In this document: piece after piece, positions 31,723 to 56,830 of the stretch
Layout: each line of letters opens with the position of its first letter
How positions within the stretch are numbered: the first letter of the stretch is position 1
Source of the DNA: Spirosoma luteum DSM 19990
GTDB lineage: Bacteria; Bacteroidota; Bacteroidia; Cytophagales; Spirosomataceae
DNA length: 64,000 bases
Assembly (NCBI RefSeq): GCF_000374065.1
Contig: NZ_KB893311.1
Span: 124,001 to 188,000, forward strand
Direction of reading: 5' to 3'
Program-made: the position numbers and the translations under genes
The notes under the pieces: model-generated
Seen by the model: the letters and a program-made list of their open reading frames with translations, nothing else
Database searches by the model: none
What the model was told of the DNA's origin: nothing

Positions 31723-31862
31723 ATGCGGTTAGCGTATATAGAATACCGTTAGAAGAATCCTTTTTTTACAACAGAGCATAATAAAAATCAGCTATTACAG
31801 CATTAATGTGCCATAACCCCCATTTTTCACTACACTTATTTACAACGAATTTTAATCAGGAT

Positions 31863-31941
31863 TAAGGGGGAGTGGATTTTCATAACTATCTGATATATAG
31901 CAATTTGCCTTGGCGAGTTGGCCTATTTGTTTGTATCTTTA
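31863..31941 (+). promoter_or_regulatory. G-box promoter 1
   Basis: G-box GGATTAAGGGGGAG at 31859-31872 (AAGGGG core preceded by the base at 31863). A TTG -33 at 31910-31912 and TATCTTTA -7 at 31934-31941 follow; box to -7 distance is 71 bp. It drives the gene at 31972 and indicates that the ATG at 31918, upstream of the expected transcript start, is not used. Confidence 0.7.
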
Positions 31942-31971
31942 TACAAGTTAAAACGCCGAAGCGCTAATCTA

Positions 31972-32532
31972 ATGATTAACTCTGACCTGTATGCAATAGC
32001 CCAGATTGGGCTGGAATTGAAGATAGTAGAAACGTTTAAACCACTTCCAACACCTGAAGCCCTGACTTCTTTTCTGAAGGGTGAGACGGATTGGGTAAGT
32101 TATGAACCGCGTATAGTTGAAATCGTTGAGGAATTGAATAAAAAAATGGGCATTGCCTATAATTACCACGTTGCAGAAGCGGCTAAACTACTTGGTATGG
32201 AGGGTTCTGGACTTGACACACTGGTCTATAACAACCAGAAGTACCGGGATGCCGAGCATAAGATTGAACGGTTCAACGTCCATTTGAATGCCATACAGGA
32301 AGAAGGTTTTTGCTTGTTGACTCAGGCCCAAGCTGACAAGTTGCTTGTCGATAAGTGCCTTGTAGAGATATATTTAACACCAAACCAGCGAATCAGCGCC
32401 AGGCTTATTAAAACTATCGCAAACGGGTACTGTTGGAGGATACCCCGCTATAAAACCAGAGGGTATGCGGCTAACCTAGAAACGCAATACGTTAAACTAC
32501 CTGCCCTCAATCAGAAATCGTCCAAAGTGTGA
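31972..32532 (+). CDS. Unknown plasmid-backbone protein (186 residues)
   Basis: The start is ATG 31972 (MINSDLYAIAQIGLELKIVE); an ATG at 31918 lies before the promoter's -7 element. The sequence is helical and charged, with LPTPEALTSFLKG, NKKMGIAYNYHVAEAAKLLG and a C-terminal QRISARLIKTIANGYCWRIP. No signal peptide, membrane segment or known family. A G-box promoter lies immediately upstream, and palindrome 1 lies 28 bp downstream. It is part of the same regulated group as the PRTRC and ArdC units. Confidence 0.6.
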   Translation: MINSDLYAIAQIGLELKIVETFKPLPTPEALTSFLKGETDWVSYEPRIVEIVEELNKKMGIAYNYHVAEAAKLLGMEGSGLDTLVYNNQKYRDAEHKIERFNVHLNAIQEEGFCLLTQAQADKLLVDKCLVEIYLTPNQRISARLIKTIANGYCWRIPRYKTRGYAANLETQYVKLPALNQKSSKV

Positions 32533-32560
32533 CCGTTAATAGAACAAGATTGTAAAGGAA

Positions 32561-32590
32561 TCACGGTGTCAAAAATTTTTGACACCGTGA
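32561..32590. repeat. Shared-core palindrome 1 (30 bp, perfect)
   Basis: TCACG plus the 20-bp core GTGTCAAAAATTTTTGACAC plus CGTGA forms a perfect 30-bp dyad with no loop. It lies 28 bp after the stop at 32532 and 30 bp before an IS3 copy. The core is identical in four palindromes (also at 34882, 44168, 54460); the arms differ. It could be a terminator, a protein-binding site or a cruciform. Confidence 0.85.
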
Positions 32591-32620
32591 TTTTGAGCAT
32601 TACCAGAATTTTTGAAAACC

Positions 32621-33871
32621 TGGGGTGGTTCGATTTAGCGGCACACTGAATTTGCAAGTTAAGTGTGATACTCATTCTCAAACTGTTCCGGACTTTTGTA
32701 GCCCAGCGACGAGTGCTTCCGCACTCGATTGTAGTAGCATTCGATGTACTCAAAAACTTCTGTGCGGGCATCGTCCACGCTCAGAAAACAACCTCCCTCC
32801 AATAATTCCGCCTTCAGGCGGCTCCAGAACGACTCGGCGAAGGCGTTGTCGTAAGGATCGTCAGCCCGGCTCATGCTGGGCCTGATGCGCCATAAACTCA
32901 CCAGTTCTCGCAACTCATTGGACACGTACTGACCGCCACGATCAGAATGGACTATCAGCCCACTCGCCGGTTGACGGACCTGAAGAGCCGCTCGCAACGG
33001 CACGATTACAAGTGCATCCTCCATGTTGTCATCAACCCGCCAACTCACCACTCGACGTGAGTATAAATCCATCCAGGCCCCCAAGTAAGCCCATTCACCG
33101 TTGGCCAATGGCAGATAAGTAATGTCGCTTACCCACACCAAATTAGGGGCCACTGGAAATGATAAGTCTAACAATAGATTCGGCCAATACCCTTTATTAT
33201 GGGTGCTATCGGTTGTCCGGGGCACAAACGACTTTGGCTGAATAGGCTGTAAGTCAGCTGCTTTCATTAGTGTCCTGACCTGTTGTCGGCCTAATTGATG
33301 CCCCTCATCTTGAAGTTGGGATACAATTCGTCGGCTACCATATCGCCGTTTATGTTCCCGAAAAACGCGCTCCACTAATGCCTTATTCACTTCTTTTTTA
33401 GGCGTTAGCTGATAAGTTTGTCCCCGTTGGTATCGGTAGTAAGCCGTTCGGCTCACGCCCATCACCTGACAAAGTGTTTCGACCGCAAACGCACCAACTA
33501 GGCTCTGAATCAGGTTATACCGCTGCGTTAAGTCGCTCGACTGAAAATACTCAAGGCTTTTTTTAAGATTTCGCGCTCGGTCTCCAATTGCCGCACTCGA
33601 TCCCTCAACTGCTGATTTTCAATGGTCAAATCGCCAGTCAGGTGATTACTTTTCTTACCCACTTGGTTTACACTCTTCCATCGGTAGATGATATTTTCGG
33701 AAATGCCCAGGGCGTTGGCAATGTAGGCTGGCGTTTGCCCACTGGCCAGCATTTTGAGGACTTCGGTTTTGAAGTCGGCATCATACTTACGCCGTGTTTT
33801 TGTGTGTTTTTCGGACTGCATGGCCTTGCGAAGTTAAGCAAATCCGTGTGCCGGTAAACCCGACCATCTCA
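32621..33871 (-). mobile_element. IS3-family insertion sequence, complete, with 3-bp target duplication
   Basis: Ends: TGGGGTGGTTCGATTTAGCG at 32621 and, reading the other strand from 33871, TGAGATGGTCGGGTTTACCG, both continuing GCACAC. The flanks are ACC (32618-32620 and 33872-33874), a 3-bp target duplication. Length is 1251 bp. OrfA and OrfB are intact. The insertion is recent enough to have kept its duplication. It sits just after palindrome 1. Confidence 0.9.
32659..33821 (-). CDS. IS3-family transposase OrfAB (programmed -1 frameshift)
   Basis: OrfA (33528-33821, 97 residues) is a helix-turn-helix DNA-binding protein (RKYDADFKTEVLKMLASGQT, then AYIANALGISENIIYRWKSV) with a coiled-coil end. 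OrfB (32659-33465 and upstream frame) carries an HTH_21-type N-terminus and the integrase core: VWVSDITYL (Asp), IVHSDRGGQYVS (Asp), DNAFAESFWSRLKAE (Glu), NRVRKHSSLGYKSPEQFE. A run of seven A (TTA AAA AAA GCC) near OrfA's end allows a -1 slip, giving KKSLEYFQSSDLTQRYNLIQ into OrfB. This is standard for IS3-type elements. Confidence 0.88.
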
Positions 33872-33963
33872 ACCAGTCATTGATTAATTATACTAAAAAA
33901 CATCATCATGTACCACATAGTCTAGATTACCAAGTATCGAAAACATAAAAATGATTAAGTCAT

Positions 33964-34881: not shown

Positions 34882-34917
34882 CTTGGCTGGTGTCAAAAAT
34901 TTTTGACACCAGCCAAG
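34882..34917. repeat. Shared-core palindrome 2 (36 bp, perfect)
   Basis: Arms CTTGGCTG / CAGCCAAG enclose the common core GTGTCAAAAATTTTTGACAC, giving a perfect 36-bp dyad without a loop. The arms differ from those of palindrome 1 but are still complementary. It starts 3 bp after the stop codon at 34879. Confidence 0.88.
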
Positions 34918-35002
34918 TGGATTCGTCAGCCAGGTAAGGAGCGAGATTTATTCACTACACAAAACACTACACACCACTAAACGTATACTAAACACAAGGG
35001 AT

Positions 35003-35081
35003 TAAGGGGAAAAGGGTGTTTTAGAAGGTTTATTTAACCCCTAAAATCGCTTGCAATGACTATATGATCGTCGTAAATTAG
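35003..35081 (+). promoter_or_regulatory. G-box promoter 2
   Basis: Box GGGATTAAGGGGAAAAGGG (34998-35016), TTG -33 at 35051-35053, 20-bp spacer, TAAATTAG -7 at 35074-35081; box to -7 distance 71 bp. Two ACTACAC motifs (34954-34960 and 34966-34972) lie upstream. It serves the gene at 35108. Confidence 0.7.
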
Positions 35082-35107: not shown

Positions 35108-35554
35108 ATGAACGCCTACTTAATTGATCCCGCAACCCGTACCATTTCACCAGTCGAAACGGACTTTTCGCTACCAAGCATTTATAATTTGCTCGGTTGC
35201 AGCCTGATTAGCAGTGCGGCAGGACAAACGAATGGTGATGTGCTGTTCGTCGATGATAATGTGTCAGATGATGAGCATGAAGCGTTCCGGTTTGGTACCT
35301 GGGAAATATACTCGAAAGCCCTGGTAGTTGGTACTGACCGCTCCGGCGAAACGGTTAGCCCAAAAAATCCGATTGAGTTGTATGAAACTCAGATCGATTG
35401 GTTAGGAGCAAAAATGTTTGAACCCAACGTTGCGTTCTTATCTTTTCCGGAAAGTGCACGCCTAGAACGTGATGCAGAAGACCGCATGGCTACCAGTTTA
35501 CAGGAGAATCTTGATTGGTGGGATGCTTTCCTGAAACGAAATAAAATTGATTAA
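35108..35554 (+). CDS. DUF3846-like plasmid protein (148 residues)
   Basis: The N-terminus MNAYLIDPATRTISPVETDF followed by LPSIYNLLGCSLISSA and GDVLFVDDNVSDDEHEAFRF resembles DUF3846 proteins (sequence Y.IDP....I..V..D....IY.LLGC..I), common on plasmids and phages and of unknown function. The central TWEIYSKALVVGTDRSGE is acidic. There is no signal peptide or membrane segment. It has its own G-box promoter and is followed by a hairpin terminator at 35561. Family assignment is by motif only. Confidence 0.5.
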   Translation: MNAYLIDPATRTISPVETDFSLPSIYNLLGCSLISSAAGQTNGDVLFVDDNVSDDEHEAFRFGTWEIYSKALVVGTDRSGETVSPKNPIELYETQIDWLGAKMFEPNVAFLSFPESARLERDAEDRMATSLQENLDWWDAFLKRNKID

Positions 35555-37115: not shown

Positions 37116-37479
37116 CAGCCCTAAAATTGATATCCAAATGCATTAGTTACTATAACCTCTGACAAAACACTTATCAAACGGAGCAGTCAGAAGCCCTGTT
37201 TAGCGGCTTGACTTGACAAAAACCAAGTCGGTCCCACTCAAATCAGGCTACAAACATACCCAGTTCACCCAGATGAATTTTTGGTGGATAAAAAAAGATG
37301 AAGGGGATGAAGCCGTTTTCTTATATATGACTTTAATTTCTAATTTGCGAAAATTATTCGTATATTGGAGTCACAAACAGGGATGAACGCAAAAGCGTTT
37401 TTCGGGCAATTGCTGTACATAAAACATCAGAAAGTAGCTGCCTTGAGCCATCAACATGTGTAATTAAGCAACATCGGAC
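37116..37479. other. 364-bp intergenic region, promoter of the helicase gene
   Basis: No ORF of note. TATATTGG at 37361-37368 is the best -7 candidate for the helicase gene, but a matching TTG -33 is weak. AAGGGGATGAAG (37301-37312) lies 61 bp before that -7, outside the 70-72 bp spacing of the G-box promoters. A short AACGC-AAAA-GCGTT-TTT hairpin (37386-37402) lies just inside the leader and could act as a weak attenuator. Confidence 0.4.
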
Positions 37480-39410: not shown

Positions 39411-39624
39411 GGTCCGGTCCAGTACTGATAGGGGACTCCGAGAAGGGCATCGTACCAGTGCCCGCTTGTAGGGCTCAAAAAACGCTTTTTTTCAAAATAT
39501 TTTATTTAATATTAAATTTACGAAAATATAGGCTCGGACTTATTGATTTAAAATAACCTTAGGGCATTCAATTAGGACAATCCAGTTGGGAATTTTTACT
39601 TTTAAGGTACAAACGGTTTAAGAG

Positions 39625-41576: not shown

Positions 41577-41685
41577 TGCTGACGATTCACCAATTATGAC
41601 TGGCAGGCACTTCCCTAACCACCGAACACAATACTATTTTATTGATAGGAATACTTTATTTATGAGGTGCTAAACGCACCGGGAT

Positions 41686-41764
41686 AAAGGGGGGAAGGGT
41701 CTTACTATAGTAGTTATAGTATTGATTTTCAGGTTGTTATATAGCTGTTTATGTGCTATTTTTA
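41686..41764 (+). promoter_or_regulatory. G-box promoter 3
   Basis: Box GGGATAAAGGGGGGAAGGG (41681-41699), TTG -33 at 41734-41736, 20-bp spacer, TATTTTTA -7 at 41757-41764; box to -7 distance 71 bp. Serves the secreted-protein gene at 41791. Confidence 0.68.
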
Positions 41765-41790: not shown

Positions 41791-42501
41791 ATGAAAACCA
41801 TCTCAACCCTCGCATCTGCCCTGCTGATGCTCAGCCTGTCAACCTTGTTTGGGCAAACTCCCAAGCCCACGTCCACCGCACCAAAAGCCGTTACCGCCCT
41901 TACTGGTAAACCGGCATCGGGCACGAAAGCGGTGTCCACTACCGCCCCCATAGTCACCAAAACCAGTTCGACGACCGCAGTGCCCAGTACGACCAAAGCC
42001 AGCACAACGCCGATGGCGTCTACCCCTGTTCCATCAACAGGCCCCAACCTTTCCTTGAAAAATCTGATCACTCAGGCTTTACAGGACGACAGTAGCCGAA
42101 CGGCAAAAAAGGCGGGTACTATTGGGGTTGGGCTTACGTATTATCTGAACGGGAGTTTACTGGCCGGTGCTATGGTTCGACAGCGTGCGGCCTACTTCAC
42201 AGCGGGAGTTGGCTTATACGCCAATAAAACCAGCAGCTTTACACCTGTTAACGACGTACTGTTCTATGGGGGTGGTGGCTTGATTACAAGCCGTCAGGTA
42301 AGTATTGGCGGATATTTGTCCGTGACGATGGTATCAAGTCCAGCTTATGCATCGACGCCGACCGGCTACGAAGCGGTAACGCATAAAACGCCCACCTTTG
42401 GTTTAGGAGTATCAGCTGGGTATCAACTCAATCATGTGCTGATTTCTGCCAACATCCATAACCAGTTTGGGCTGGGTCTGGGCGCTACCTATTTCTTCTA
42501 A
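41791..42501 (+). CDS. Secreted/outer-membrane protein with Thr/Pro/Ser-rich linker
   Basis: 236 residues. A signal peptide (MKTISTLASALLMLSLSTLF, cleavage about GQ) is followed by a Thr/Pro/Ser/Ala-rich linker (about 25-85, TPKPTSTAPKAVTALTGKP) and then a beta-rich domain, IGVGLTYYLNGSLLAGAMVR, FTAGVGLYANKTSSF, FGLGVSAGYQLNHVL, ending GLGATYFF. The alternating aromatic pattern and final Phe suggest a small outer-membrane barrel. No family is recognised. It has its own G-box promoter and terminator, and may help conjugation-surface contact or envelope adaptation. Confidence 0.6.
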   Translation: MKTISTLASALLMLSLSTLFGQTPKPTSTAPKAVTALTGKPASGTKAVSTTAPIVTKTSSTTAVPSTTKASTTPMASTPVPSTGPNLSLKNLITQALQDDSSRTAKKAGTIGVGLTYYLNGSLLAGAMVRQRAAYFTAGVGLYANKTSSFTPVNDVLFYGGGGLITSRQVSIGGYLSVTMVSSPAYASTPTGYEAVTHKTPTFGLGVSAGYQLNHVLISANIHNQFGLGLGATYFF

Positions 42502-42847: not shown

Positions 42848-43067
42848 CTTCACTACACGGGCCGAGCCACGGTTCAGCTTCCTGCGGTCGCCAACCGCCA
42901 CTCGACCTTATAATAGCCTACTCTCAAACCCTTCCACTCATCATGACTGGCCTGGTTACACCATTCCGATCATGATTCGATTCAGGATTAGAGAGCCGTC
43001 TCTACCAAACCTGACGACAATACACAGGACTACACCTATTCGCGTTTAAGCCGCTTGCGCGGGAGAT

Positions 43068-43145
43068 AAAGGGGAAAGGGGTGGGTTAATTCATTGTATT
43101 ACAGTTGGTTATGTTTGAAAGTAGCCTATTTTGGACGTATCTTTA
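43068..43145 (+). promoter_or_regulatory. G-box promoter 4
   Basis: Box GGGAGATAAAGGGGAAAGGG (43061-43080), TTTG -33 at 43114-43117, 20-bp spacer, TATCTTTA -7 at 43138-43145; box to -7 distance 70 bp. ACTACAC at 43029-43035 precedes it. It serves the genes from 43171. Confidence 0.75.
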
Positions 43146-44167: not shown

Positions 44168-44187
44168 GTGTCAAAAATTTTTGACAC
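44168..44187. repeat. Shared-core palindrome 3 (20 bp, perfect)
   Basis: GTGTCAAAAATTTTTGACAC exactly. Flanks (G before, GTT after) are not complementary beyond the core, unlike copies 1 and 2. It is in the intergenic gap after the small membrane protein and before the 57-codon gene at 44273. Confidence 0.85.
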
Positions 44188-45046: not shown

Positions 45047-45137
45047 CATTCGAGTTGATGACCCGCACCGGCTGACTTATATGGATGCGTTTTGGCTACT
45101 ACACTACACGATTACAACACTTATTTTATTCTGGGAA

Positions 45138-45215
45138 AAAGGGGAAAGGCGTTTAGTTAACTTCCTGTATTTCAGATAGTTGACTTTAAAAAGGGGGCCG
45201 TTTTGCGTATCTTTA
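45138..45215 (+). promoter_or_regulatory. G-box promoter 5
   Basis: Box GGGAAAAAGGGGAAAGG (45133-45149), a weak -33 at 45185-45187 (TTT), 20-bp spacer, TATCTTTA -7 at 45208-45215; box to -7 distance 70 bp. Overlapping ACTACAC motifs at 45098-45109 precede it. The ArdC-like gene starts at 45263. Confidence 0.72.
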
Positions 45216-45262
45216 TATAGTTGATACGAGGGCGGCACCGACCTGTAATTTCGGGTAATACA

Positions 45263-47021: not shown

Positions 47022-47081
47022 CTCTTAAACAGGCACCAATCTGCCTGACTCGCAAACAACACTACACATCACGTTAACGAG

Positions 47082-47161
47082 AAAGGGGACGATAGGATTT
47101 GTTAACTTCTTAAATAACAGATAGTTATAGTAGGGAAGCGGATAAAAAAACGCTATCTTTA
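47082..47161 (+). promoter_or_regulatory. G-box promoter 6
   Basis: Box AAAGGGGACGATAGG (47082-47096), a weak -33 near 47131-47133 (TAG), TATCTTTA -7 at 47154-47161; box to -7 distance 72 bp. ACTACAC at 47061-47067 precedes it. The gene starts at 47186. Confidence 0.65.
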
Positions 47162-47185: not shown

Positions 47186-47689
47186 ATGACAAATCAACTG
47201 AACAGTTCAGTGCCAGGCAAAGAAAATACTTGCTGCCAGGCAACTCAGTTTGCCCAGCAGGTTGCCGGCATGACGAATGAACAAATTACTGCTTATTTAA
47301 GGGGGAAGCCAGTGAACTACGTAGATAATACCGTACTGGACCACAGTGGAGAGTACTTTGACCCCGTAAAATTTTTCTTTACAGATGGGTCTATACTTTT
47401 CATTTTTGATTGGAATGAAGAAACGCCGGTTATGAGGGTTTACGAACAACTCCTGACCAATGCGCAGTTAATCAGCGCATATAGTGATGAAACCGGTGAT
47501 TTCGACCATTTCAGTGCTCAACTAATCGACTCCCTACATGCTTTAGCCATCAGTGATTTTCCCGGCCAGACGCTACAGGTTGAGGTAAACCTTACGGTCG
47601 AAGGCTTACTGCTTCAATTGTCGACCGATACATTGTATATAATTATACGCTTGTTGCCGGAGAAGATCGATTTAATCCCGGTCAGTTAA
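47186..47689 (+). CDS. Unknown 167-residue protein
   Basis: MTNQLNSSVPGKENTCCQAT, then QQVAGMTNEQITAYLRGKPV and an acidic beta-rich remainder (LFIFDWNEETPVMRVYEQLL, LQVEVNLTVEGLLLQLSTDT). It has no membrane segment. Two adjacent Cys near the N-terminus (CC) might bind a metal or lipid. No family is recognised. It is the first gene after G-box promoter 6; the following 47868 gene may be co-transcribed. Confidence 0.5.
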   Translation: MTNQLNSSVPGKENTCCQATQFAQQVAGMTNEQITAYLRGKPVNYVDNTVLDHSGEYFDPVKFFFTDGSILFIFDWNEETPVMRVYEQLLTNAQLISAYSDETGDFDHFSAQLIDSLHALAISDFPGQTLQVEVNLTVEGLLLQLSTDTLYIIIRLLPEKIDLIPVS

Positions 47690-48191: not shown

Positions 48192-48267
48192 TAAGCCTCT
48201 TATCCATGTCTCCACGACACTAAACACTCCACGATTTCACTAGTAGGAATGCGTATAAACACGGGAT

Positions 48268-48346
48268 GAAGGGGAAAAGGGTGGGCCAATCAGATAGACA
48301 TAAGGGGCACAAAGGTTGAGGGTTAAATGAATATTTCGTATATTTA
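48268..48346 (+). promoter_or_regulatory. G-box promoter 7 (PRTRC operon)
   Basis: Box GGGATGAAGGGGAAAAGGG (48263-48281), TTG -33 at 48316-48318, 20-bp spacer, TATATTTA -7 at 48339-48346; box to -7 distance 71 bp. It drives the PRTRC cassette from 48384. Confidence 0.74.
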
Positions 48347-48383: not shown

Positions 48384-48605
48384 ATGGCAGAGCTAAAAGA
48401 ATTAAGCGGAGTTTTACACCCAAATACCCGCAAGAACAAGCCCAACAGCCCAGATTTTATAGGTCAGATTCTGATTGACGGACAAAAATATGAACTAGCT
48501 GGCTGGAACACGAAGAAAGTCAACCTAGAGGGTAAGTCATTTGTAAACATACGGGCCAACCGTATTATTTCTACGCATCCCGCCCGTGACCCGTTTCAGG
48601 AATAA
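48384..48605 (+). CDS. Unknown 73-residue protein at the head of the PRTRC operon
   Basis: MAELKELSGVLHPNTRKNKP, then NSPDFIGQILIDGQKYELAG, WNTKKVNLEGKSFVNIRANR and a proline-containing tail. A beta-rich small domain with conserved W/N pattern resembles DUF736-like plasmid proteins in layout (G.L.......PDF.G.I.IDG..Y.LAGW). It overlaps nothing and is the first gene of the unit. It may bind DNA or help assemble PRTRC proteins. The resemblance is only suggestive. Confidence 0.5.
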   Translation: MAELKELSGVLHPNTRKNKPNSPDFIGQILIDGQKYELAGWNTKKVNLEGKSFVNIRANRIISTHPARDPFQE

Positions 48606-48654
48606 ACGTGTTCGTAATGGTAGCCATCGTCTTTTACTTTCAATTGGTAATCTT

Positions 48655-49260
48655 ATGGATTTTTTTCAACGCCTTGCGGCTCTGAATCTTACAGGTGATT
48701 TAAAGCTAGTTATCACCGATACGCCAAACGGACAGCGCGTAACCTTACTTTTAGTCAATGACCTATGCGGGGATGAAGCCCGTAAACAGATTGCTCCACT
48801 TAATATAACAGGCACCCCTACTGAACTGGATGCTGGATTCTTCAACATTATTGAAAAGCCGATGCAACAGGCATCGGGATTAATGGTCAATTTGGAAGCC
48901 TTTCAAAAGAGTCTGGAAAAAACGCAACAGCAATCGGCAAAGGAAAAGCTCGAAGAATCAACTAAGAAAAAAGCAAAAGAGGAGTTGAAAAAAGCCTACG
49001 ACGCGGCCATGAAGAAAGTAGATGAACTGGAAAAAGAAAAAAGATACCGGGAAGCCTACGCCAAAACGCCTGACCCTGAACAGCACCCCGATCAGGCCGA
49101 ATCCATTCGTAAAAAACGTGCCGAATTACTGGCAAATTTCTCACAGCCAGGATTGTTCGATGCAATACCTGTCCAGTCAGCCAGTCAGCCCTCTACTGAG
49201 GAGAATACGTCAGGCGTAGAAACGTCAACAAACGCAACAATTGAATCTGTGACCGCTTAA
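48655..49260 (+). CDS. PRTRC system protein E
   Basis: 201 residues from ATG 48655 (MDFFQRLAALNLTGDLKLVI), chosen because PRTRC-E proteins start with a similar 'FF..L' motif; the frame is open to 48586. The N-terminal domain contains VTLLLVNDLCGDEARKQIAP and LNITGTPTELDAGFF, typical of PRTRC-E. A Lys/Glu-rich helical middle (about 85-155, KAKEELKKAYDAAMKKVDEL) is followed by a tail with FSQPGLFDAIPVQ, which resembles a DNA-clamp-binding QxxLF motif. PRTRC-E is a family of unknown function in the ParB/ThiF-related cassette. Confidence 0.78.
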   Translation: MDFFQRLAALNLTGDLKLVITDTPNGQRVTLLLVNDLCGDEARKQIAPLNITGTPTELDAGFFNIIEKPMQQASGLMVNLEAFQKSLEKTQQQSAKEKLEESTKKKAKEELKKAYDAAMKKVDELEKEKRYREAYAKTPDPEQHPDQAESIRKKRAELLANFSQPGLFDAIPVQSASQPSTEENTSGVETSTNATIESVTA

Positions 49261-49271
49261 ATTATTTGCTT

Positions 49272-49490
49272 ATGTTACTTGCAACCCAACTCAAACGTGT
49301 CTTTCTGATGGAAGAAAAAGGGCAGACCGTTGAATTATCTGACCCCGACCCCACGCTTAGTCCTCAGGCAGTTTTAAACCATTATTCCAACCTATACGCA
49401 ATTCTGACAACCGCTAAAATCAGTCCCGCTGACATCAGGGATGATGCGGTTCAGTACAGATTTGAATCAGTCATGGGAACTAAAGGTTAG
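49272..49490 (+). CDS. PRTRC system protein C
   Basis: 72 residues from ATG 49272 (MLLATQLKRVFLMEEKGQTV). PRTRC-C proteins share the pattern LA..L.R.F..NG..L.DP.P.LSP..V...Y...YP.LT.A......V....V.Y.F....GTKG; here DPDPTLSPQAVLNHYSNLYA, ILTTAKISPADIRDDAVQYR and MGTKG match it well, including the final GTKG. The TTG two codons upstream is less likely than ATG. It is 11 bp after PRTRC-E and 4 bp before the PRTRC-F start. Function unknown. Confidence 0.85.
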   Translation: MLLATQLKRVFLMEEKGQTVELSDPDPTLSPQAVLNHYSNLYAILTTAKISPADIRDDAVQYRFESVMGTKG

Positions 49491-49494
49491 AAAA

Positions 49495-50669
49495 ATGATG
49501 GGTAAATCCGCTCGAAAGATACCGTCCATTAAACTCAATGAACCAAAATGGTTGCTCGCCCGAAATCTAATCGACTACATGAACACGCTCGATCAGATGC
49601 CCGACGCAAGACAGGCCATAACGGGGCAACAACGGTGTGCGCCCCTCAGCCTACTGCCGATGGTTTTTTAAATCATTGCTTTGCCCCCGTTTATCCTCTA
49701 ACCGAAGAGCTTTTCGACCAGCAGGGAGTAGAAACCGATTTTTTTAAATCGGTTTCTTACCTGTCTGACCTCTACAATCTGGGCCTTGACGTGCATCAGT
49801 TGGAATGGGGGCATAATTACCCGTTTAATATTCAGCACAGTTATCAACTCGTTGTCGAGAAGCTGAAAGCTATTCGGGAGGACGTAGACGTGTTGATACT
49901 ATCCAACGAGACAACCAAAGGGACTTTAGCGACCGTCCAGCAGTACGATACCGATTACTATTCGTATTTCGTTCCGGTTAAACCCCTTTGGCAGCTTCAA
50001 AAATCGGGTAATAATAAACCATTGACGCACCTGCTTGAATCTATTTACGCGTACCTGATGCACATTAGCGGATTGCCATTTATATCGGACCAGAGTTCTT
50101 ATGTGTTTTATCAATGCGACATGATGCTGGAAAGTCGTGCTGAGTGGACTGGCCGGGAGGAGCGTAAAGAATACACCGCCTTTGAAAAAATAGTGAAGCA
50201 GTCTCGTCGGGGGAGCCGGATAATTCGCAACCGAATCAACCAGACTACCCACTTGAAAAACTTCCACAGGCGTTTTTCTGGGTTCCAGCCTGAGTCAGAA
50301 GCCGAAGCTGAATTAAAAGCCGTTGCCAGTACATTTCTCAATTTGTACACCCGGTTTCCAAACCGTTCAATCTGGGATAGTTACCACATTGGTCTGATGA
50401 CTCCTGACGAGGAATACCGGATTCATCCCGATCAGTTTATTTCGTTCATCTGGGATTTTGACGATGGGATTTACGATGATCTTGTGCAGTCGCTAGATGC
50501 TGATTTTAATGGGGGGGGCTATGTTGAATTACCCCAAACAGTACAGATGTTCGACCAGCCACAACCCGTTCAGACGCTAAATCTGGAATTCGAAGAAACC
50601 TTCTTTACGACAGTGGGTAATTTGATTTCAGTTCAACATAAACTAAGCTTGGATGCAAAATATAACTGA
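49495..50669 (+). CDS. PRTRC system protein F with a -1 frame break near 49640-49670
   Basis: The first frame starts at ATG 49495 (MMGKSARKIPSIKLNEPKWL, LARNLIDYMNTLDQMPDARQ) and stops at 49671. The second frame, open from before 49548, carries the rest, LNHCFAPVYPLTEELFDQQG to the stop at 50669 (YLSDLYNLGLDVHQLEWG, SIWDSYHIGLMTPDEEYRIH, FISFIWDFDDGIYDDLVQSL). The natural product thus needs a -1 shift, perhaps at the run of six T before TAA (GG TTTTTT AA, 49662-49671) or at GGGG (49623-49626). Both sides look like good coding sequence. It overlaps the PRTRC-B start by 17 bp. Function unknown. Confidence 0.65.
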
Positions 50670-51366
50670 ACAGTTTGAACAGGGCTATTATCCCGTTAAA
50701 GCCTTATTGCTGTACCGCTCGAAGTTGGAAACACGTTCGTTTTATTTGGAAGCTTTCGACATCGAGAAGAAAACGGGTAAGCCCATAAATGCCCATCCGT
50801 TGGCCGAGAACGAGCTTACTATGTTGTCGAAAGCACTACTTACTAAAGAGAAAAAGCAACAGGATTATCTGATGCCCAAAGAATTATTACCGGCTAATGT
50901 ACTTAGCTTGAATACGCAGTCCGGTGTTGTATTATGGTACACACCCGCGCAGGAGCAATCTTTGTTTTTTAAAGACTCTCTGACCATTCCATGCGGCAAA
51001 GCCCAGGTACCGGCCCTGGTCTGGAAAGCCTCAAAGTGCGGACTACAGCTTTTCGCCTTATCAGACGACCGAAAACCTGACATAAAAACCGCGCTTTATT
51101 ACGCTCCTTTTTTTAATACCGCTAAATCAGGAAATGTATGTATGGGTACTGTACAGGTAGGAATAACCGAATCAAGTTCGTTAGAGGAATTTATAGGGGC
51201 TTGGGAAACGGCTTTTTTTAACAGTTATTTTTCTCACTTGAATGACCAGCATCAACCCGTAAAAGGCAATATTATCCAGCTTTGGCAGTCACTGATGGAT
51301 TCAGGAAAACCGTTTCCAATAGGGTTATTAACCACAAGTTTATTAACCATCCAGCAGCTATTGTAG
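50653..51366 (+). CDS. PRTRC system protein B
   Basis: 237 residues. Conserved PRTRC-B features are visible: PVKALLLYRSKLETRSFYLE, VLSLNTQSGVVLWYTPAQEQ, CGKAQVPALVWKASKCGLQL, TALYYAPFFNTAKSGNVCMG and ETAFFNSYFSHLND. The LYYAPFFN...VCMG...E..FF.SYFTHL signature is characteristic of the family. The gene begins inside the last 17 bp of PRTRC-F and ends 1 bp before the ThiF-like gene, so the cassette is one translationally coupled unit. No enzyme activity is predicted from motifs. Confidence 0.88.
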   Translation: MQNITEQFEQGYYPVKALLLYRSKLETRSFYLEAFDIEKKTGKPINAHPLAENELTMLSKALLTKEKKQQDYLMPKELLPANVLSLNTQSGVVLWYTPAQEQSLFFKDSLTIPCGKAQVPALVWKASKCGLQLFALSDDRKPDIKTALYYAPFFNTAKSGNVCMGTVQVGITESSSLEEFIGAWETAFFNSYFSHLNDQHQPVKGNIIQLWQSLMDSGKPFPIGLLTTSLLTIQQLL

Positions 51367-51367
51367 T

Positions 51368-52180
51368 ATGGAAACTAAAAAACCACTAATGCATTTTACC
51401 GCCGGATATTTAATTAATCCGACCAATCCGGTAACCGTAAATCTGCTGGGCGCGGGCGGGACAGGTTCCCAAATGCTGATGGCACTCGCTAAAATGAATT
51501 ATGCCCTCAAGCAGTTAGAGCATCCCGGTTTTCAGGTAAATCTTTGGGACGGTGATACGGTGAGTAAAGCAAATTTAGGTCGTCAGCTATTTGCGGAGGT
51601 AGAACTAGGTTTTAACAAAGCGGTAGCCTTAGTGAATCGTACTAACCGATTTTTCGGAACGAACTGGAAAGCCGTACCGGAACCCTACTGCATCAACAGT
51701 CTGCGAAAAGAATATAATGCACTGGCATCAGCTAACGTATTTATCAGTTGCGTAGACACGGTATCATCGAGAATGGAGTTAGCCAATATTTTACGTCAAA
51801 TTATTGAAAAACGGGAACACCATCAGGATAGACCCTACTACTGGATGGATTTTGGCAACGGCAGACATACCGGACAAGTAATTCTCTCAACAGTGGGTAA
51901 ATTGCCACAACCTACCTCAAAAAAGTATCGTACCGTTGAACAGCTACCCTTTGTAACGGATGAGTTTAAAACCTTGCTGGAACAGGCAGATACCTCGGAT
52001 GATACGCCATCCTGTTCGCTGGCGGAAGCCTTATCCAAACAGGAGTTATTCATTAATCCGACATTAGCCAATATTGGTAGTTCCCTGCTGTGGTCGCTGT
52101 TACGAAATGGCATGACTGAACACAGGGGGGTGTTTCTGAACCTGCACGAGTTTCGCACCCAGCCGCTAAAACTGAACTAA
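51368..52180 (+). CDS. PRTRC ThiF/E1-like adenylyltransferase
   Basis: 270 residues. The E1/ThiF Rossmann motif NLLGAGGTGSQMLMALAKMN (about 25-44) is followed by VNLWDGDTVSKANLGRQLFA (DxD..N..RQ pattern, about 59-78) and VFISCVDTVSSRMELANIL (about 120-138). The C-terminus has the family's DTPSCSLAEALSKQELFINPTLANI, with a Cys in PSCSL that may serve as a catalytic or adenylation-linked residue. ThiF-like proteins adenylate C-termini of ubiquitin-like or sulfur-carrier proteins. The partner is unknown. It ends the PRTRC cassette before a hairpin terminator. Confidence 0.88.
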   Translation: METKKPLMHFTAGYLINPTNPVTVNLLGAGGTGSQMLMALAKMNYALKQLEHPGFQVNLWDGDTVSKANLGRQLFAEVELGFNKAVALVNRTNRFFGTNWKAVPEPYCINSLRKEYNALASANVFISCVDTVSSRMELANILRQIIEKREHHQDRPYYWMDFGNGRHTGQVILSTVGKLPQPTSKKYRTVEQLPFVTDEFKTLLEQADTSDDTPSCSLAEALSKQELFINPTLANIGSSLLWSLLRNGMTEHRGVFLNLHEFRTQPLKLN

Positions 52181-52217: not shown

Positions 52218-52267
52218 GCTAACTACCTCACAACACTGAACTGGACTACACTAATTCTACCTGGGAA

Positions 52268-52345
52268 TAAGGGGAAAGATGCTTTTGTAATTACTTGTAA
52301 ATTAGCGGGTTGCCTTGTTTTCTGGTTTCAGAATGCCGATCTTTA
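52268..52345 (+). promoter_or_regulatory. G-box promoter 8
   Basis: Box GGGAATAAGGGGAAAG (52263-52278), TTG -33 at 52315-52317, 20-bp spacer, GATCTTTA -7 at 52338-52345; box to -7 distance 70 bp. ACTACAC at 52245-52251 precedes it. It serves the genes after 52374. Confidence 0.7.
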
Positions 52346-52397
52346 AGTTAGTAAAGGAAGGCCAAAAGGCTGAGTGACAACTCCAGAATATTTCCCC

Positions 52398-52577
52398 ATG
52401 AAACCCGCTGATGCCTACCGAAGACTGATCGAATCTGGACCTTTCGATGATCCTCTGGTGTCCTGGTGCGCCACGCGCTGGCACTGGGTCGCGCGGGAGG
52501 GAAAGCAGGTACTTTGCTGCACACCCTGGCGCTCGGTTAGTAAAGACTACCCTGAATTCATAAAGCCGGTTGTTTAA
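52398..52577 (+). CDS. Small unknown Cys/Trp-rich protein (59 residues)
   Basis: From ATG 52398 (MKPADAYRRLIESGPFDDPL) the protein runs VSWCATRWHWVAREGKQVLC, then CTPWRSVSKDYPEFIKPVV. An upstream in-frame GTG at 52374 would add MTTPEYFP. Three Cys (CATRW...LCCTPW) and four Trp suggest a compact fold or metal binding. No family is recognised. It is the first gene after G-box promoter 8 and is followed by the 141-residue gene. Confidence 0.45.
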   Translation: MKPADAYRRLIESGPFDDPLVSWCATRWHWVAREGKQVLCCTPWRSVSKDYPEFIKPVV

Positions 52578-52605
52578 ACCCTGTTCTTACCAACCTCAAA
52601 ATTCT

Positions 52606-53031
52606 ATGACGATGGATGCGCTCGATCCTTTTACGGAAACTATAATTCAGCGCCTGGCTGAAACACTGGTAGCTGCTAGGGAGGCCAGTCAAACACAGCC
52701 CTTAACCGATATGTGTTCGGAAGTCTGGTTTATGTATGACCTAATTGGCAATATAGGGTTTAGCATGATGGGTGCCCATCATGTTCAGTTTGATAATGAC
52801 CAGTTCAACCTCACCTGGAAAATGGGATCGGGTGCTTCAATGGATACCGTTGAGTTCAGCTATAATCCAGGCAAGGACTTATTCAATCTGCGGTTCAGAC
52901 GGTACGTTATGGGACAGTCGATTATTATCGAGAAAGAAACCGAATTTCTTGGTATCTACGATGACATGGTTATCCCGCTGATTGATAAACAGACCGGGTC
53001 ACGCCAGACCGGGTTTTATCTACGTCTGTAA
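52606..53031 (+). CDS. Unknown 141-residue soluble protein
   Basis: ATG 52606 (MTMDALDPFTETIIQRLAET) is chosen over a TTG at 52570. It has a helical start, then VWFMYDLIGNIGFSMMGAHH, VQFDNDQFNLTWKMGSGASM, DTVEFSYNPGKDLFNLRFRR and FLGIYDDMVIPLIDKQTGS. It looks like an alpha/beta protein without signal peptide. It lies 28 bp after the small Cys/Trp-rich gene and is followed by a 27-bp palindromic hairpin. Confidence 0.45.
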   Translation: MTMDALDPFTETIIQRLAETLVAAREASQTQPLTDMCSEVWFMYDLIGNIGFSMMGAHHVQFDNDQFNLTWKMGSGASMDTVEFSYNPGKDLFNLRFRRYVMGQSIIIEKETEFLGIYDDMVIPLIDKQTGSRQTGFYLRL

Positions 53032-53168: not shown

Positions 53169-53220
53169 TTTTATATTTTCAAATATTAAAATTTAAATAG
53201 TTATATTTGAAAATATAAAA
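53169..53220. promoter_or_regulatory. 18-bp perfect inverted repeat, likely operator of the 53242 gene
   Basis: TTTTATATTTTCAAATAT (53169-53186) and its exact complement (53203-53220) flank 16 bp. Each arm holds a nearly palindromic TATATTTGAAAATATA unit. TAACTTTA at 53222-53229 just after the right arm is a candidate -7 element for the gene at 53242. The layout fits a repressor site that blocks its own promoter. Confidence 0.65.
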
Positions 53221-54448: not shown

Positions 54449-54459
54449 CTAGTGTGCAC

Positions 54460-54479
54460 GTGTCAAAAATTTTTGACAC
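54460..54479. repeat. Shared-core palindrome 4 (20 bp, perfect)
   Basis: GTGTCAAAAATTTTTGACAC exactly, 12 bp after the stop at 54448. Flanking bases (C left, C right) do not extend the dyad. Same core as copies at 32561, 34882 and 44168. Confidence 0.85.
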
Positions 54480-54536
54480 CACCTGTACTTACCCGAGAAT
54501 TAGCTCATAGCTGCTTTCCCCAATCAATCAGCGGTC

Positions 54537-55118
54537 ATGACAGTTTTTGACCAGGCAACCGAAGCGTTATGCGCTTTCCTGCCCACCTTATTTAAGTTAC
54601 AGGCAGTTGTTTTACCATCAACAGATGAGGTTTACTGGCGATCCCGGTGGCACGAATGGGTTAATCCGCATAGTGGTGATTCTAAAGAGGAGTACGAACA
54701 AAAACGCATCCTTCAGCTACGATGGAATGAAGTATGGTATTATTATCAGTACCTGTTTACCCAGTCCTACAAGAATCCCGATAGAGCAAAACTAAAAACT
54801 CATTTAATGACCTGCCAACAAACGGCTGAATGGTTTCTGGAATATATTCAGCAACAAAATCAAGTGATTCAGGAACCGCAAAATGAGAAGTTATGGTACG
54901 TACGCTATTCGATGTGGAATGAGACGGTACAGTACGGCGGTTTGGCAACGCTCAGCCCTTGGCCAGCCAGTTGGCCACTTATTCAGGAAGGATTACAACA
55001 ACGGTTTGCTGCTCCATTGCCGCCAGTAACGCCTGTTGACAGATACGTTGATACAAGGCAGATGAGTTTGTTTGATGAGCAGACCCATAGGAACCTAAGG
55101 GGCCTAAACAAGGCCTAA
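54537..55118 (+). CDS. Unknown 193-residue protein with a possible sliding-clamp-binding tail
   Basis: MTVFDQATEALCAFLPTLFK, LQAVVLPSTDEVYWRSRWHE, a long helical core (RILQLRWNEVWYYYQYLFTQ, HLMTCQQTAEWFLEYIQQQN), then a Trp/Pro-rich part and a C-terminal TRQMSLFDEQTH. QMSLF fits the bacterial beta-clamp-binding consensus QL[S/D]LF, seen in many DNA-replication partners. This suggests it joins the replisome or interferes with it, but no catalytic domain is visible. No known family is recognised. It begins 57 bp after palindrome 4. Confidence 0.5.
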   Translation: MTVFDQATEALCAFLPTLFKLQAVVLPSTDEVYWRSRWHEWVNPHSGDSKEEYEQKRILQLRWNEVWYYYQYLFTQSYKNPDRAKLKTHLMTCQQTAEWFLEYIQQQNQVIQEPQNEKLWYVRYSMWNETVQYGGLATLSPWPASWPLIQEGLQQRFAAPLPPVTPVDRYVDTRQMSLFDEQTHRNLRGLNKA

Positions 55119-55278
55119 AGTCTACCATATTTATACAGATTAACAATAAGCCGGCTTGATTAAAAAGCAGGGTGGTTTTTCTGTGACCTATACTGAGTGT
55201 AACCTGTGCTTTTTTACTACACTATTTTATTTCGGAATTTAAAAAATAGTTAAAACATCACTTTTCAATCACTGGGAC

Positions 55279-55357
55279 TAAGGGGAAGGAGAGCTAATGT
55301 AGCGTATGCGATTATCAGTTAATCGCTTGTTCATCAGTGCAATAACTTGTATCTTTA
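55279..55357 (+). promoter_or_regulatory. G-box promoter 9
   Basis: Box GGGACTAAGGGGAAGG (55274-55289), TTG -33 at 55327-55329, 20-bp spacer, TATCTTTA -7 at 55350-55357; box to -7 distance 71 bp. ACTACAC at 55216-55222 lies further upstream than in other copies. It serves ssb at 55401. Confidence 0.75.
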
Positions 55358-55400
55358 ATCTAGTAAAGCAGTAATTATTAATCATTAAATAGGTAAAGTT

Positions 55401-55736
55401 ATGTATAATCTAAATCGCTATTCATTTACGGGCTACATCGGTAATGCTAAATCCGTAGAGTCCGAAAATCCATTCACGTCTGTTTCAGTGGCAGTAGATG
55501 AGTCGTATACCAATCCTACAAATCAGGAAAAGGTAGAGCGTGTCAAATGGGTAGAGGTGCAGCTAAAGGGCACGGATCAACTACCATATCTAACCAAAGG
55601 CCGCCATGTACTTGTCGAGGGCCGACCAGTGGCTGATGCTTACCTGGATGGTGAAGGGAAAGCAACGGCAAAACTCATTGTTAAAAGCGCAGCGGTTACG
55701 TATCTCGACAAGAAGCCGGAGCTTCAGGAAGTGTAG
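55401..55736 (+). CDS. ssb: Single-stranded DNA-binding protein
   Basis: 111 residues. The OB-fold pattern is clear: RYSFTGYIGNAKSVESENPF (strands 1-2), FTSVSVAVDESYTNPTNQEK, VKWVEVQLKGTDQLPYLTKG (conserved W.V...G), RHVLVEGRPVADAYLDGEGK and AKLIVKSAAVTYLDKK. The C-terminal tail is short and lacks the usual acidic DDDIPF end, so it probably does not recruit host repair proteins like chromosomal SSB. Plasmid SSBs protect single strands during conjugation. It is the first gene of a G-box unit and is followed 20 bp later by a zinc-binding gene. Confidence 0.88.
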   Translation: MYNLNRYSFTGYIGNAKSVESENPFTSVSVAVDESYTNPTNQEKVERVKWVEVQLKGTDQLPYLTKGRHVLVEGRPVADAYLDGEGKATAKLIVKSAAVTYLDKKPELQEV

Positions 55737-55755
55737 TTGTTAGAGTCTGGTCGGG

Positions 55756-56238
55756 ATGAACCCAACGGCTTATCCTGACCAAACCTGGAGTTTTACCAGT
55801 ACAATACGTAATCAATCCATACGCATGAAAAGGCTCATCGAACGTAATCTGAAATTCAGTAACCGGTACGCAGTCACGTCAATTTCTATTACAGGTATTA
55901 ATTCGGACTGGTACTGCTGCGATAACTGTAATCGACAGATAGCCAACAAAGCGACAGTTCGGACTACTGCGGGAGATCAGTATGTGATTGGTCTGGATTG
56001 TTTAAAGACGCTGGCCCAGGCAGGTGTACTGGATAAGAGCAACTACCTGCAAAGCCAGGATGATATTGCCAGTGCACAGCTGGTAGCCAGCCTGGTTGGT
56101 TTTGCCAATGATGGAGGGACTGTTGAAAAAGACCTCATGTACGTAACCGTTACTAAAGGTCACAAAACCAAACAATGTTTTTCCCATCTGGTCCGTCAGT
56201 ATGCACCCGTGTTTTTTGAGCGAATCACCCAGAATTAA
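55756..56238 (+). CDS. Unknown protein with a treble-clef-like CxxC site (160 residues)
   Basis: The N-terminus MNPTAYPDQTWSFTSTIRNQ is followed by a helical run (MKRLIERNLKFSNRYAVTSI), then SDWYCCDNCNRQIANKATVR and TTAGDQYVIGLDCLKTLAQA. Two Cys pairs (CCDNC, GLDC) with the YVIGLDCLKTL strand resemble zinc-ribbon elements in plasmid and phage proteins. The C-terminal half has repeated VASLVGF and YVTVTKGHK. It follows ssb closely and may act on DNA together with it. No known family is recognised. Confidence 0.5.
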   Translation: MNPTAYPDQTWSFTSTIRNQSIRMKRLIERNLKFSNRYAVTSISITGINSDWYCCDNCNRQIANKATVRTTAGDQYVIGLDCLKTLAQAGVLDKSNYLQSQDDIASAQLVASLVGFANDGGTVEKDLMYVTVTKGHKTKQCFSHLVRQYAPVFFERITQN

Positions 56239-56489
56239 CGCTTGTCTTAATTGGTTTACATTATACTTAATCAGACCTGTTTACGATTAAAGCGTTAAAT
56301 GCTTAATTGTCACAGCAAATTGGGTTAATCGCTTTCCGAAACTAAGTTCGTTGGAGAATGACCACGAAAGGGGCTTTTTCGTTTGAAAAAGAATGATCTA
56401 TTTTCTTATATTTGAATATTATTTTAAGTTTGAGAAACCAATGCAGATTCACTTATGTTCATTGAATAAGCAAGTAAGACCCTATTAAT

Positions 56490-56639
56490 ATGTTAACCGA
56501 TCGCTCTGTATCGCAAGCGGCTAAGGTGAGCTGCAACGATTTTGTTTTTCCCCTAAACGCCCAGTTGGGTGACTATTCGTTCTATTCTCAAGCTACTGTA
56601 GGCAGGAATCCTACTGGATGTCCTAGTCAAGACAAATAG
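56490..56639 (+). CDS. Short ORF (49 residues), possible leader or small protein
   Basis: ATG 56490 to TAG 56639 encodes MLTDRSVSQAAKVSCNDFVF, PLNAQLGDYSFYSQATVGRN and PTGCPSQDK. A good consensus promoter lies upstream: TTTG -33 at 56382-56385, 21-bp spacer, TATATTTG -7 at 56407-56414. A rho-independent terminator follows at 56664. The ORF may be a small regulatory peptide or non-coding RNA from that promoter. The 250 bp before it (56239-56489) show no other gene. Confidence 0.4.
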   Translation: MLTDRSVSQAAKVSCNDFVFPLNAQLGDYSFYSQATVGRNPTGCPSQDK

Positions 56640-56663
56640 CTCTAACAGAAATAACGAACTCAC

Positions 56664-56688
56664 CCAGCCCCAACCGGCTGGTTTTTTT
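56664..56688 (+). terminator. Intrinsic terminator
   Basis: CCAGCC (56664-56669) pairs with GGCTGG (56676-56681) over a 6-nt loop, followed by TTTTTTT. It ends the transcript from the promoter near 56407. Confidence 0.75.
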
Positions 56689-56750
56689 ATGCCCTTTTTT
56701 GAAGCTTTATTAGCGCCTCAGGGGGAAGGAATTCAAAAAAAGGAGTAGGG

Positions 56751-56830
56751 TAAGGGGAAGCAAATGGAGGGCTTAAATGCGTTGCATGAGCGTTAAAGCT
56801 TGACAGTTGATGTAGGCTTGTGTATCTTTC
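56751..56830 (+). promoter_or_regulatory. G-box promoter 10
   Basis: Box GTAGGGTAAGGGGAAGC (56745-56761), TTGA -33 at 56800-56803, 20-bp spacer, TATCTTTC -7 at 56823-56830; box to -7 distance 72 bp. It drives the 36-residue membrane peptide at 56865 and perhaps the gene at 57122. Confidence 0.7.

Follow-up and report, generated by a model that had tools for sequence, protein, structure and literature searches.

How do conjugative plasmids of the Bacteroidota coordinate their anti-restriction and establishment genes? To our knowledge, little is known about this, and the question is raised by a 64,000-nucleotide stretch of Spirosoma luteum DSM 19990 (contig NZ_KB893311.1, positions 124,001 to 188,000; hereafter the window), which is part of the 218-kb contig C66 of the source genome (G000). 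A sequence-only reading of the window had pointed to a G-rich box with the core AAGGGG at ten sites (31864, 35004, 41687, 43069, 45139, 47083, 48269, 52269, 55280 and 56752), each followed at a fixed distance by a -7 promoter element. All ten boxes were found on the + strand, and the genes downstream are of the kinds that had been named: ardC, an SSB-like gene, PRTRC_E, PRTRC_B, PRTRC ThiF and many genes without a Pfam match. Together with the related plasmids described below, the window shows that conjugative plasmids of one family, found in Spirosoma and its relatives, set a short G-rich sequence at a near-fixed distance before many promoters.

Three plasmid lineages were compared. Lineage A is the window plasmid (contigs C66 and C28) with its relatives, including that of Spirosoma endophyticum DSM 26130 (G006), a member of the same genus. 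The second contig, C28, probably continues the plasmid of C66, because the gene order on G027:C14 and G006:C41 runs on from the C66 genes into those of C28. Lineage B, comprising G027:C14 and a segment of G015, was found with a position weight matrix trained on 18 sites (14 of lineage A and four of G006). Lineage C, to which a search with the ArdC protein led, comprises pSLIN01 of S. linguale DSM 74, a plasmid of S. oryzicola and a Fibrella plasmid, the latter two covered over 33.5 and 41 kb, respectively; its assignment is based on matching promoters and a shared leader sequence. With the ardC promoter as BLAST query, the plasmid collection gave no match.

Counted from the base that precedes AAGGGG up to where the -7 element starts, the distances at the ten sites are, in site order, 71, 71, 71, 70, 70, 72, 71, 70, 71 and 72 bp. 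The values reported earlier were right as a set (three of 70, five of 71 and two of 72), but they had been listed by size and not by site. Likewise, the stated separation of about seven DNA turns has to be corrected to ~6.5–6.7 turns by simple arithmetic with 10.5 bp per turn. Four further boxes outside the range initially given (C66:210430, C28:2896, C28:8233 and C28:23192, with 69, 68, 70 and 71 bp to the -7 element) bring lineage A to 14 sites, all on one strand.

The spacing was assessed on unselected sites by a rotation test and an offset scan. In the rotation test, strict -7 elements (TAT[ACT]TTTA) were paired with boxes within 10–160 bp on the backbone (C66 from 150 kb on, and C28), and the -7 positions were rotated 5000 times against the boxes. 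On the + strand of lineage A, nine of 13 strict pairs fell at 69–72 bp, and the best 3-bp bin held eight pairs, compared to a maximum of two in the 5000 rotations; the control on the - strand of the same backbone yielded no box/-7 pair. The offset scan, in which 6-mers were counted in 3-bp offset bins upstream of the -7 elements with neither motif nor distance presupposed, ranked AAGGGG at -71/-70 first (corrected E 7e-9).

When the lineage A pattern with TATCTTT was searched across 222 genomes of the family, 15 matches were obtained. Six of them, in G000, G006 and G015, span 82–83 bp; eight of the other nine span 79, 80 or 90–96 bp. The remaining match lies on a contig of chromosomal size (G110:C1:3731835-3731918), and its span of 84 would fit a distance of 72 bp. 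In viral contigs the box pattern was matched 13 times, with no match at the window's spacing.

Lineages B and C have their own versions of the box (ATAACAGGGGAAAGG and GACGAAAGGGGGCGAAGGG, respectively) at the same distance as lineage A. The lineage B box reads ATAAC[AG]GGG(G)AAAGG, and distances were counted from its AAC. Twelve sites, picked for a -7 element at 67–76 bp, have this element in register at 72–73 bp. Without such selection, nine of ten strict pairs within 10–160 bp were at 72–73 bp and the tenth was at 82 bp; the rotation test gave nine pairs in the best 3-bp bin, compared to a null maximum of two in 5000. The top matches of the offset scan were ATAACA at -74 (corrected E 9e-14) and ACAGGG at -71 (7e-13). 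In the strict pair test, the A box was absent at that distance in lineage B, and the B box was absent at it in lineage A. On G027:C14 the box precedes relatives of ardC, the SSB-like gene, the genes at 41791 and 52570, and PRTRC_E. With a free gap of 50–80, the lineage B pattern had 16 matches in the 222 genomes: nine in G015 and G027, which span 81–82 bp, and seven elsewhere with spans of 69, 72, 74, 75, 84, 87 and 90 bp. A further PRTRC region, the fifth inspected (G015, 4.84 Mb), belongs to lineage B, and four of its promoters have AACAGG at -72 (E 0.32); four PRTRC regions of other plasmids contained no comparable motif.

The lineages were compared by a unified distance that starts at the A of AGGG and ends at the -7 element, the listed sites having been picked for a -7 element near this distance. 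It is 66, 67, 68 (four sites), 69 (six) and 70 bp (two) for the 14 sites of lineage A, 68 (four) and 69 bp (eight) for the 12 sites of lineage B, and 69, 70 and 68 bp for the three sites of lineage C, which are those of pSLIN01. Thus, 29 sites in three lineages have 66–70 bp between the A of AGGG and the -7 element. The sequence-only reading had suggested that the spacing be compared with random expectation in related plasmids. This was done, and the idea survived in the rotation test, the offset scan, the genome-wide patterns and the spacing in G006 and lineage B.

Lineage C boxes read GACGAAAGGGGGCGAAGGG or similar. On pSLIN01, three such promoters were found, with a unified distance of 68–70 bp; the offset scan of this plasmid, with only three sites, was not significant. 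Each of the three promoters is followed by a leader, GGCACCGAC..TTCGGG, which also follows the ardC promoter of the window (Table 1). The copies on pSLIN01 are at 80048, 78248 and 53789 (minus strand), and the leader precedes ardC and, on pSLIN01, two other genes. It possibly forms a small hairpin; an Rfam search assigned no family to its position in the window. At the counterpart promoter of Slin_6721, whose protein counterparts share 84–90 of 92 residues, the distance is 59 bp in S. oryzicola and Fibrella versus 69 bp in S. linguale; this leader also fixes the position of the -7 element there. A further case is site 40647 of lineage B, with TATTTTTA at 82 bp instead of 72–73 bp. All these exceptions amount to shifts by roughly one turn of the helix.

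Between related plasmids, conservation is higher in the box than in its flanks. Thirteen of the 14 lineage A sites could be aligned in G006 (the exception being C28:23192), with a mean identity between G000 and G006 of 0.90 for the box, 0.98 for the -7 element, 0.88 for the -33 element, 0.83 for the inner sequence, 0.79 upstream of the box and 0.91 downstream. At the counterpart of site 43069 in G006, the inner sequence was largely replaced, and the box was retained at 71 instead of 70 bp. The claim that the sequence between box and -33 is not conserved among sites stood for most of them; it failed for 43069, 45139 and 47083, which have a 29-nt inner segment in common (69–79%). In the G015 stretches compared, 11 of the 14 sites aligned, while 31864, C28:8233 and C28:23192 were not found there. 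G006 has a degraded version of the box of 56752, and G015 has GAGGGG in its place; therefore, this site, the weakest of the ten, is regarded as doubtful. On G015:C1 (~8.8 Mb), pieces of lineage A lie at 7.87–7.89 Mb (+) and 8.07–8.11 Mb (-), ~0.2 Mb apart on opposite strands, and pieces of lineage B lie at 4.87 Mb and 5.14–5.16 Mb (-), ~0.27 Mb apart.

With regard to the core promoter, the exact -7 sequence TATCTTTA occurs at five of the ten window sites. The others read TATCTTTC, TATTTTTA, TATATTTA, TAAATTAG (35004) and GATCTTTA (52269); the last two deviate from TAnnTTT. Judged by its letters, the -7 element at 35004 is weak, since it reads TAAATTAG instead of the exact TATCTTTA. Overall, the -7 elements look like functional parts of promoters, because an in-frame ATG of the downstream ORF (open reading frame) follows 24–52 nt after them at nine of the ten sites; at 48269 the ATG counted is that at 48384 and not the first one, and the first ATG that follows at 56752 is not in the frame of the ORF listed there. 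A TTG exactly 20 bp before the -7 element at seven of ten sites, and 21 bp before it at 31864, was borne out, with no TTG at 45139 and 47083. A TTG starting at -25 to -21 was present at ten of 14 sites in lineage A, at none of 12 in lineage B and at all three in lineage C. In Flavobacterium, the -7 box TAnnTTTG occupies -12 to -5, according to the accessible part of the source (PMC9723704). Hence, the G-rich box would be located at about -88 to -72, with its centre near -80. Between box end and -7 element lie 56–60 bases at the 14 lineage A sites, which places the box end ~36 bp upstream of a TTG at -23. At the promoter of the SSB-like gene, an inverted repeat (GCGATTA..TAATCGC, 55308-55326) lies between box and -33 and shows paired changes in G006 (TGTGTTA..TAACACA).

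Which mechanism could keep the box in register with so many promoters? A shared plasmid-encoded factor would fit best, because the box is uniform within and different between lineages and stands in fixed phase to the -7 element, while the intervening DNA is free to change. A shared trans-acting factor had already been proposed in the sequence-only reading, and the proposal is supported by the lineage-uniform box, the 66–70 bp kept between lineages, the conservation of the box above that of its flanks, and the deviations of about one turn. Such a factor would bind the boxes before ardC, the SSB-like gene, the PRTRC genes and many small unknown genes, and would occupy one face of the DNA, centred at ~-80. 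Class I activators work from positions including those near -80. By analogy, the factor may touch RNA polymerase directly, probably through the C-terminal domain of the alpha subunit; because of this contact, box and core promoter would have to keep the same helical phase. Co-divergence of the box was observed in the three lineages, and a lineage-specific box is as expected if a plasmid-borne binder co-diverged with it. The missing -33 element in lineage B suits an activator-dependent promoter and favours activation. The factor would probably act as an activator, and the genes may be expressed on entry into a new cell. The whole statement, that the boxes are sites of one plasmid-encoded transcription factor which acts on backbone operons of the establishment type, touches RNA polymerase and activates, is given a probability of roughly 55%, judged from sequence comparison.

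The same boxes could also be operators of a plasmid repressor, so that the promoters would be silent in the donor and, once transferred, active for a short time only, before repressor has been made, either as in the establishment regulon of the Bacillus plasmid p576 or by silencing in the style of KorB/KorA; this alternative is tentative and is rated possible rather than likely. MobC_2 matches, found in all three lineages (with the pSLIN01 match below Pfam's cut-off), would suit it, as MobC-like proteins resemble ribbon-helix-helix (RHH) proteins, and most lineage A promoters have the -33 TTG (10/14). As far as the accessible part of the source goes (PMC8708921), the RHH repressor Reg of the p576 regulon EGeRS2 acts on a comparable gene set, ardC together with several further operons, from an operator immediately upstream of -35 or just after the start. 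This operator, TTATCCCnnTTATCCC (GGGATAAnnGGGATAA on the opposite strand), consists of two heptamers with a 2-bp spacer and resembles the A box; in lineages A, B and C, too, ardC and further operons of the plasmid have a common sequence in front of them. Read as GGGATAA-AG-GGGAAAG, the A box gave 4.0 of 7 heptamer matches compared to 2.67 after column permutation (fraction 0.054, suggestive only), whereas the dual-heptamer signal was absent in lineage B (2.75 versus 2.26, fraction 0.26). The p576 repressor is known and belongs to a plasmid of another phylum, and the box here does not adjoin the promoter as on p576 but ends ~36 bp upstream of the -33 TTG at fixed helical phase. Moreover, the lineage B promoters lack the -33 element (0/12) that would be expected in a strong repressed promoter, and Pfam and PHROGs searches of the 25 small window ORFs pointed to no repressor gene following a box.

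Three further explanations were considered. That the box, together with its AC-rich, G-poor flank, does not belong to the promoter but insulates the transcription of tandem units from one another (as a roadblock or a Rho-type terminator) is very unlikely. The 50 bp upstream of the A boxes are indeed G-poor (12.7% versus 19.9% in 258 control windows, Mann-Whitney p 4e-4) and may terminate the preceding unit, and eight of the ten window boxes lie 13–159 bp after an ORF stop; but the spacing is locked to the downstream -7 element and not to the upstream stop, whose distance ranges over 13–725 bp, and the G-poor flank is not present in lineage B (21.8% G). Slightly less credible still are single-stranded-DNA promoters of the Frpo/ssi type, where the entering strand folds and is transcribed before synthesis of the second strand. 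The 14 A sites all point in one direction round the plasmid, as do the 12 B sites; ardC and the SSB-like gene are among the targets; and inverted repeats occur at some sites, with stems at 55280 that differ yet persist in G006. When the 14 A sites were folded on both strands with DNA energies, however, the values were close to those of shuffled sequences (z ≤ -2 at 2/14 on the minus strand, 41687 and 55280, and at 0/14 on the plus strand), and the tra operon separates the array from the relaxase end. Least probable is that the sites are mere copies of one ancestral promoter cassette, or G-quadruplexes, without a dedicated protein: three sites do share the 29-nt inner stretch, yet inner sequence differs among most paralogues and was largely replaced at the G006 counterpart of 43069 with box and spacing kept, and the four-run G motif occurs at only two of 14 A sites and at none of 12 B sites. 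Hairpin single-strand promoters and G-quadruplexes are therefore not supported as general explanations.

Several observations weigh against the preferred reading of the boxes as sites of one plasmid-encoded activator. A -33 element is present in most promoters of lineages A and C, which may therefore work without an activator. For the one-turn shifts there are three sites, of which two belong to a single gene in two plasmids, and sites 35004, 47083 and 56752 are weak. On the + strand of G027:C14 (1–125 kb), seven more boxes of ATAAC/AAAAC type have no standard -7 element in register and stand outside the count of 29. Three of them (43278, 44273 and 109287) have a -7-like sequence near the expected place, three (50289, 81651 and 86720) have none that is clear, and 40647 is the one-turn case described above. 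A box-like sequence on the opposite strand of G027:C14 (89751), 77 bp from TAACTTTA, also occurs in G015. Among the 25 small window ORFs of the array, no helix-turn-helix (HTH) or RHH regulator family was detected with Pfam and PHROGs, and many of these ORFs have no family at all. Finally, no factor was tied to the box among the candidates inspected.

These candidates included matches to HTH, ArsR-type and LytTR families from a first scan of 60 plasmid ORFs (best 25 of 48 Pfam and best 25 of 31 PHROGs families), in which the ArsR and Xre matches were assigned to ORFs by reading the sequences. The standalone LytTR protein C66:215513 was rejected, having no box in its own lineage A promoter and no close counterpart in pSLIN01; lineage B has two standalone LytTR proteins. 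The Xre protein C66:203933 has a counterpart in pSLIN01 but was rejected as well, because none turned up in lineage B. A histidine kinase/response regulator pair, of LytTR type by pSLIN01 annotation, has BLAST counterparts in lineages A (C28:29134 and 29906) and B (G027 96212 and 97446) and is a candidate. So are the Rep3 initiator and a neighbouring protein of no known family, which have relatives in all three lineages. The MobC-like protein, also a candidate, is 26% identical between lineages A and B. A zygotic-induction switch of the Bacteroidota, in which a plasmid-specific protein (for example, a MobC-like protein of the relaxosome) binds the box at its strictly phased position around -80 and switches on every establishment operon on entry into the recipient, with box and protein co-evolving and promoter geometry frozen, is considered unlikely. 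In the window, w39625 is ParA-like, and w40451, the gene after it, has no convincing family match and is ParB-like by position only. Nine regions bearing a relative of w40451 (32–40 kb, from eight genomes of 19 with a match) contained no comparable motif, which speaks weakly against w40451 as the regulator. The idea that w39138 is an RHH protein was dismissed: it had no Pfam match and no convincing PDB relative (one, E 0.96), and its structural model, a poor one with a predicted local distance difference test score (pLDDT) of 61, contained no strand.

The boxes, their -7 elements and the ardC leader are listed in Table 1.

Table 1. G-boxes, -7 elements and ardC leader, in coordinates of the window; distances are from the base before AAGGGG to the -7 element.
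Feature	Position	Strand	Remarks
G-box 1 (AGGATTAAGGGGGAGTG)	31858..31874	+	kept in G006:C76
-7 element TATCTTTA	31934..31941	+	71 bp from box 1; TTG 21 bp upstream
G-box 2 (GGGATTAAGGGGAAAAG)	34998..35014	+	retained in both G006 and G015
-7 element TAAATTAG (weak match)	35074..35081	+	71 bp; before 35108-35554 (DUF3846, below Pfam's cut-off)
G-box 3 (GGGATAAAGGGGGGAAG)	41681..41697	+	
-7 element TATTTTTA	41757..41764	+	71 bp; before 41791-42501 (no Pfam match; lineage B relative also boxed)
G-box 4 (GAGATAAAGGGGAAAGG)	43063..43079	+	in G006, inner sequence mostly replaced, box at 71 bp
-7 element TATCTTTA	43138..43145	+	70 bp; before 43171 and subsequent ORFs
G-box 5 (GGGAAAAAGGGGAAAGG)	45133..45149	+	
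-7 element TATCTTTA	45208..45215	+	70 bp; before ardC (ORF 45221-46225, first in-frame ATG 45263)
Conserved ardC leader (GGCACCGAC..TTCGGG)	45234..45255	+	common to G006 and three pSLIN01 promoters
G-box 6 (ACGAGAAAGGGGACGAT, weak)	47077..47093	+	
-7 element TATCTTTA	47154..47161	+	72 bp; before 47186-47689; no TTG
G-box 7 (GGGATGAAGGGGAAAAG)	48263..48279	+	
-7 element TATATTTA	48339..48346	+	71 bp; before 48384 and PRTRC genes 48586-52180
G-box 8 (GGGAATAAGGGGAAAGA)	52263..52279	+	
-7 element GATCTTTA	52338..52345	+	70 bp; before 52374-53031
G-box 9 (GGGACTAAGGGGAAGGA)	55274..55290	+	
-7 element TATCTTTA	55350..55357	+	71 bp; before SSB-like gene 55401-55736
G-box 10 (TAGGGTAAGGGGAAGCA)	56746..56762	+	weakest; degraded in G006
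-7 element TATCTTTC	56823..56830	+	72 bp; next listed ORF 56996-57709

To the right of the array lie a minus-strand tra operon (TraQ, TraO, DUF4138, TraM, TraJ) and a relaxase gene. Other repeated sequences were observed in and near the array. CACTACAC has seven copies on the + strand of the window (31828, 34953, 34965, 36413, 42851, 45102 and 47060) and none on the - strand; five of the seven lie ahead of a G-box, at 23–51 bp. The perfect 20-bp palindrome GTGTCAAAAATTTTTGACAC, a possible terminator or protein site, has four exact copies (32566-32585, 34890-34909, 44168-44187 and 54460-54479), 11–73 bp past ORF stops, and was not found in C28 or G027:C14. A 37-nt family, TTTTC..GAAA (37316-37352, 39489-39525, 53176-53212 and 56401-56437), is perhaps a second promoter class; two of its four copies precede the helicase and parA genes, which lack a G-box at the normal distance. 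One of the 25 small ORFs (window 31918-57709) gave another SSB-like match, to PHROG single-strand DNA binding families (E 1e-8); this ORF is distinct from the gene at 55401, which was left out of that scan. An Rfam search of window 31500-57500 gave a single sub-threshold match, unrelated to the boxes.

Between the tra and mob operons, a degenerate array of 8-bp repeats (CCCNNNNN) was seen at G000:C66 ~196424-196928 (right of the window), G006:C41 ~98390-99325 and G027:C14 ~73702-74055. The unit sequence varies among the related plasmids and the period is kept, with an autocorrelation at lags 8 and 16 of 0.57 in lineage A and of 0.45 and 0.40 in lineage B. Upstream of the mob genes, GCAAGATRTGTTTT is conserved in the three lineages (G000:C66:197118, G027:C14:74288 and pSLIN01:64401, minus strand) and adjoins an inverted repeat in lineage A. 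This region is possibly the origin of transfer (oriT); none of the lineage boxes is present in the putative oriT region inspected.

Compared to known systems, the arrangement would be of a known kind, a plasmid-wide establishment or backbone regulon, and its new part would be the unusual, strictly phased distal operator. The -7 sequence TAnnTTT and the nearby start codons resemble the Bacteroidota sigma-A-type promoter (TTG, ~20 bp, TAnnTTT). Class I activation of the CRP or LytTR type likewise involves an upstream site near -80 and depends on helical phase, while the GTT-type direct repeats of LytTR sites are not apparent in the box, for which no scoring of them was made. KorB sites are palindromic, in contrast to the asymmetric box described here, whose distance to the promoter is fixed. 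Shared with KorB/KorA control of the IncP plasmid RK2, as described in the accessible parts of PMC11790492 and PMC4889941, would be the plasmid-encoded control of several backbone operons via repeated operators. Frpo/ssi promoters of leading regions also precede SSB and anti-defence genes in one orientation (accessible part of PMC11541004), whereas no general hairpin is found at the boxes here. In full-text literature searches, whose coverage leaves out most subscription papers, no account of the layout was found among the matches listed, in agreement with the sequence-only reading, which had called the organisation undescribed.

For the biology of these plasmids, the finding would mean a sequence-defined regulon of at least 29 promoters in three plasmid lineages, with a promoter geometry that can be tested. 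It would also provide a natural experiment in the co-divergence of regulator and operator, including one-turn changes in spacing. Since they have the control element of ardC in common, many small unknown genes become candidate establishment or anti-defence genes.

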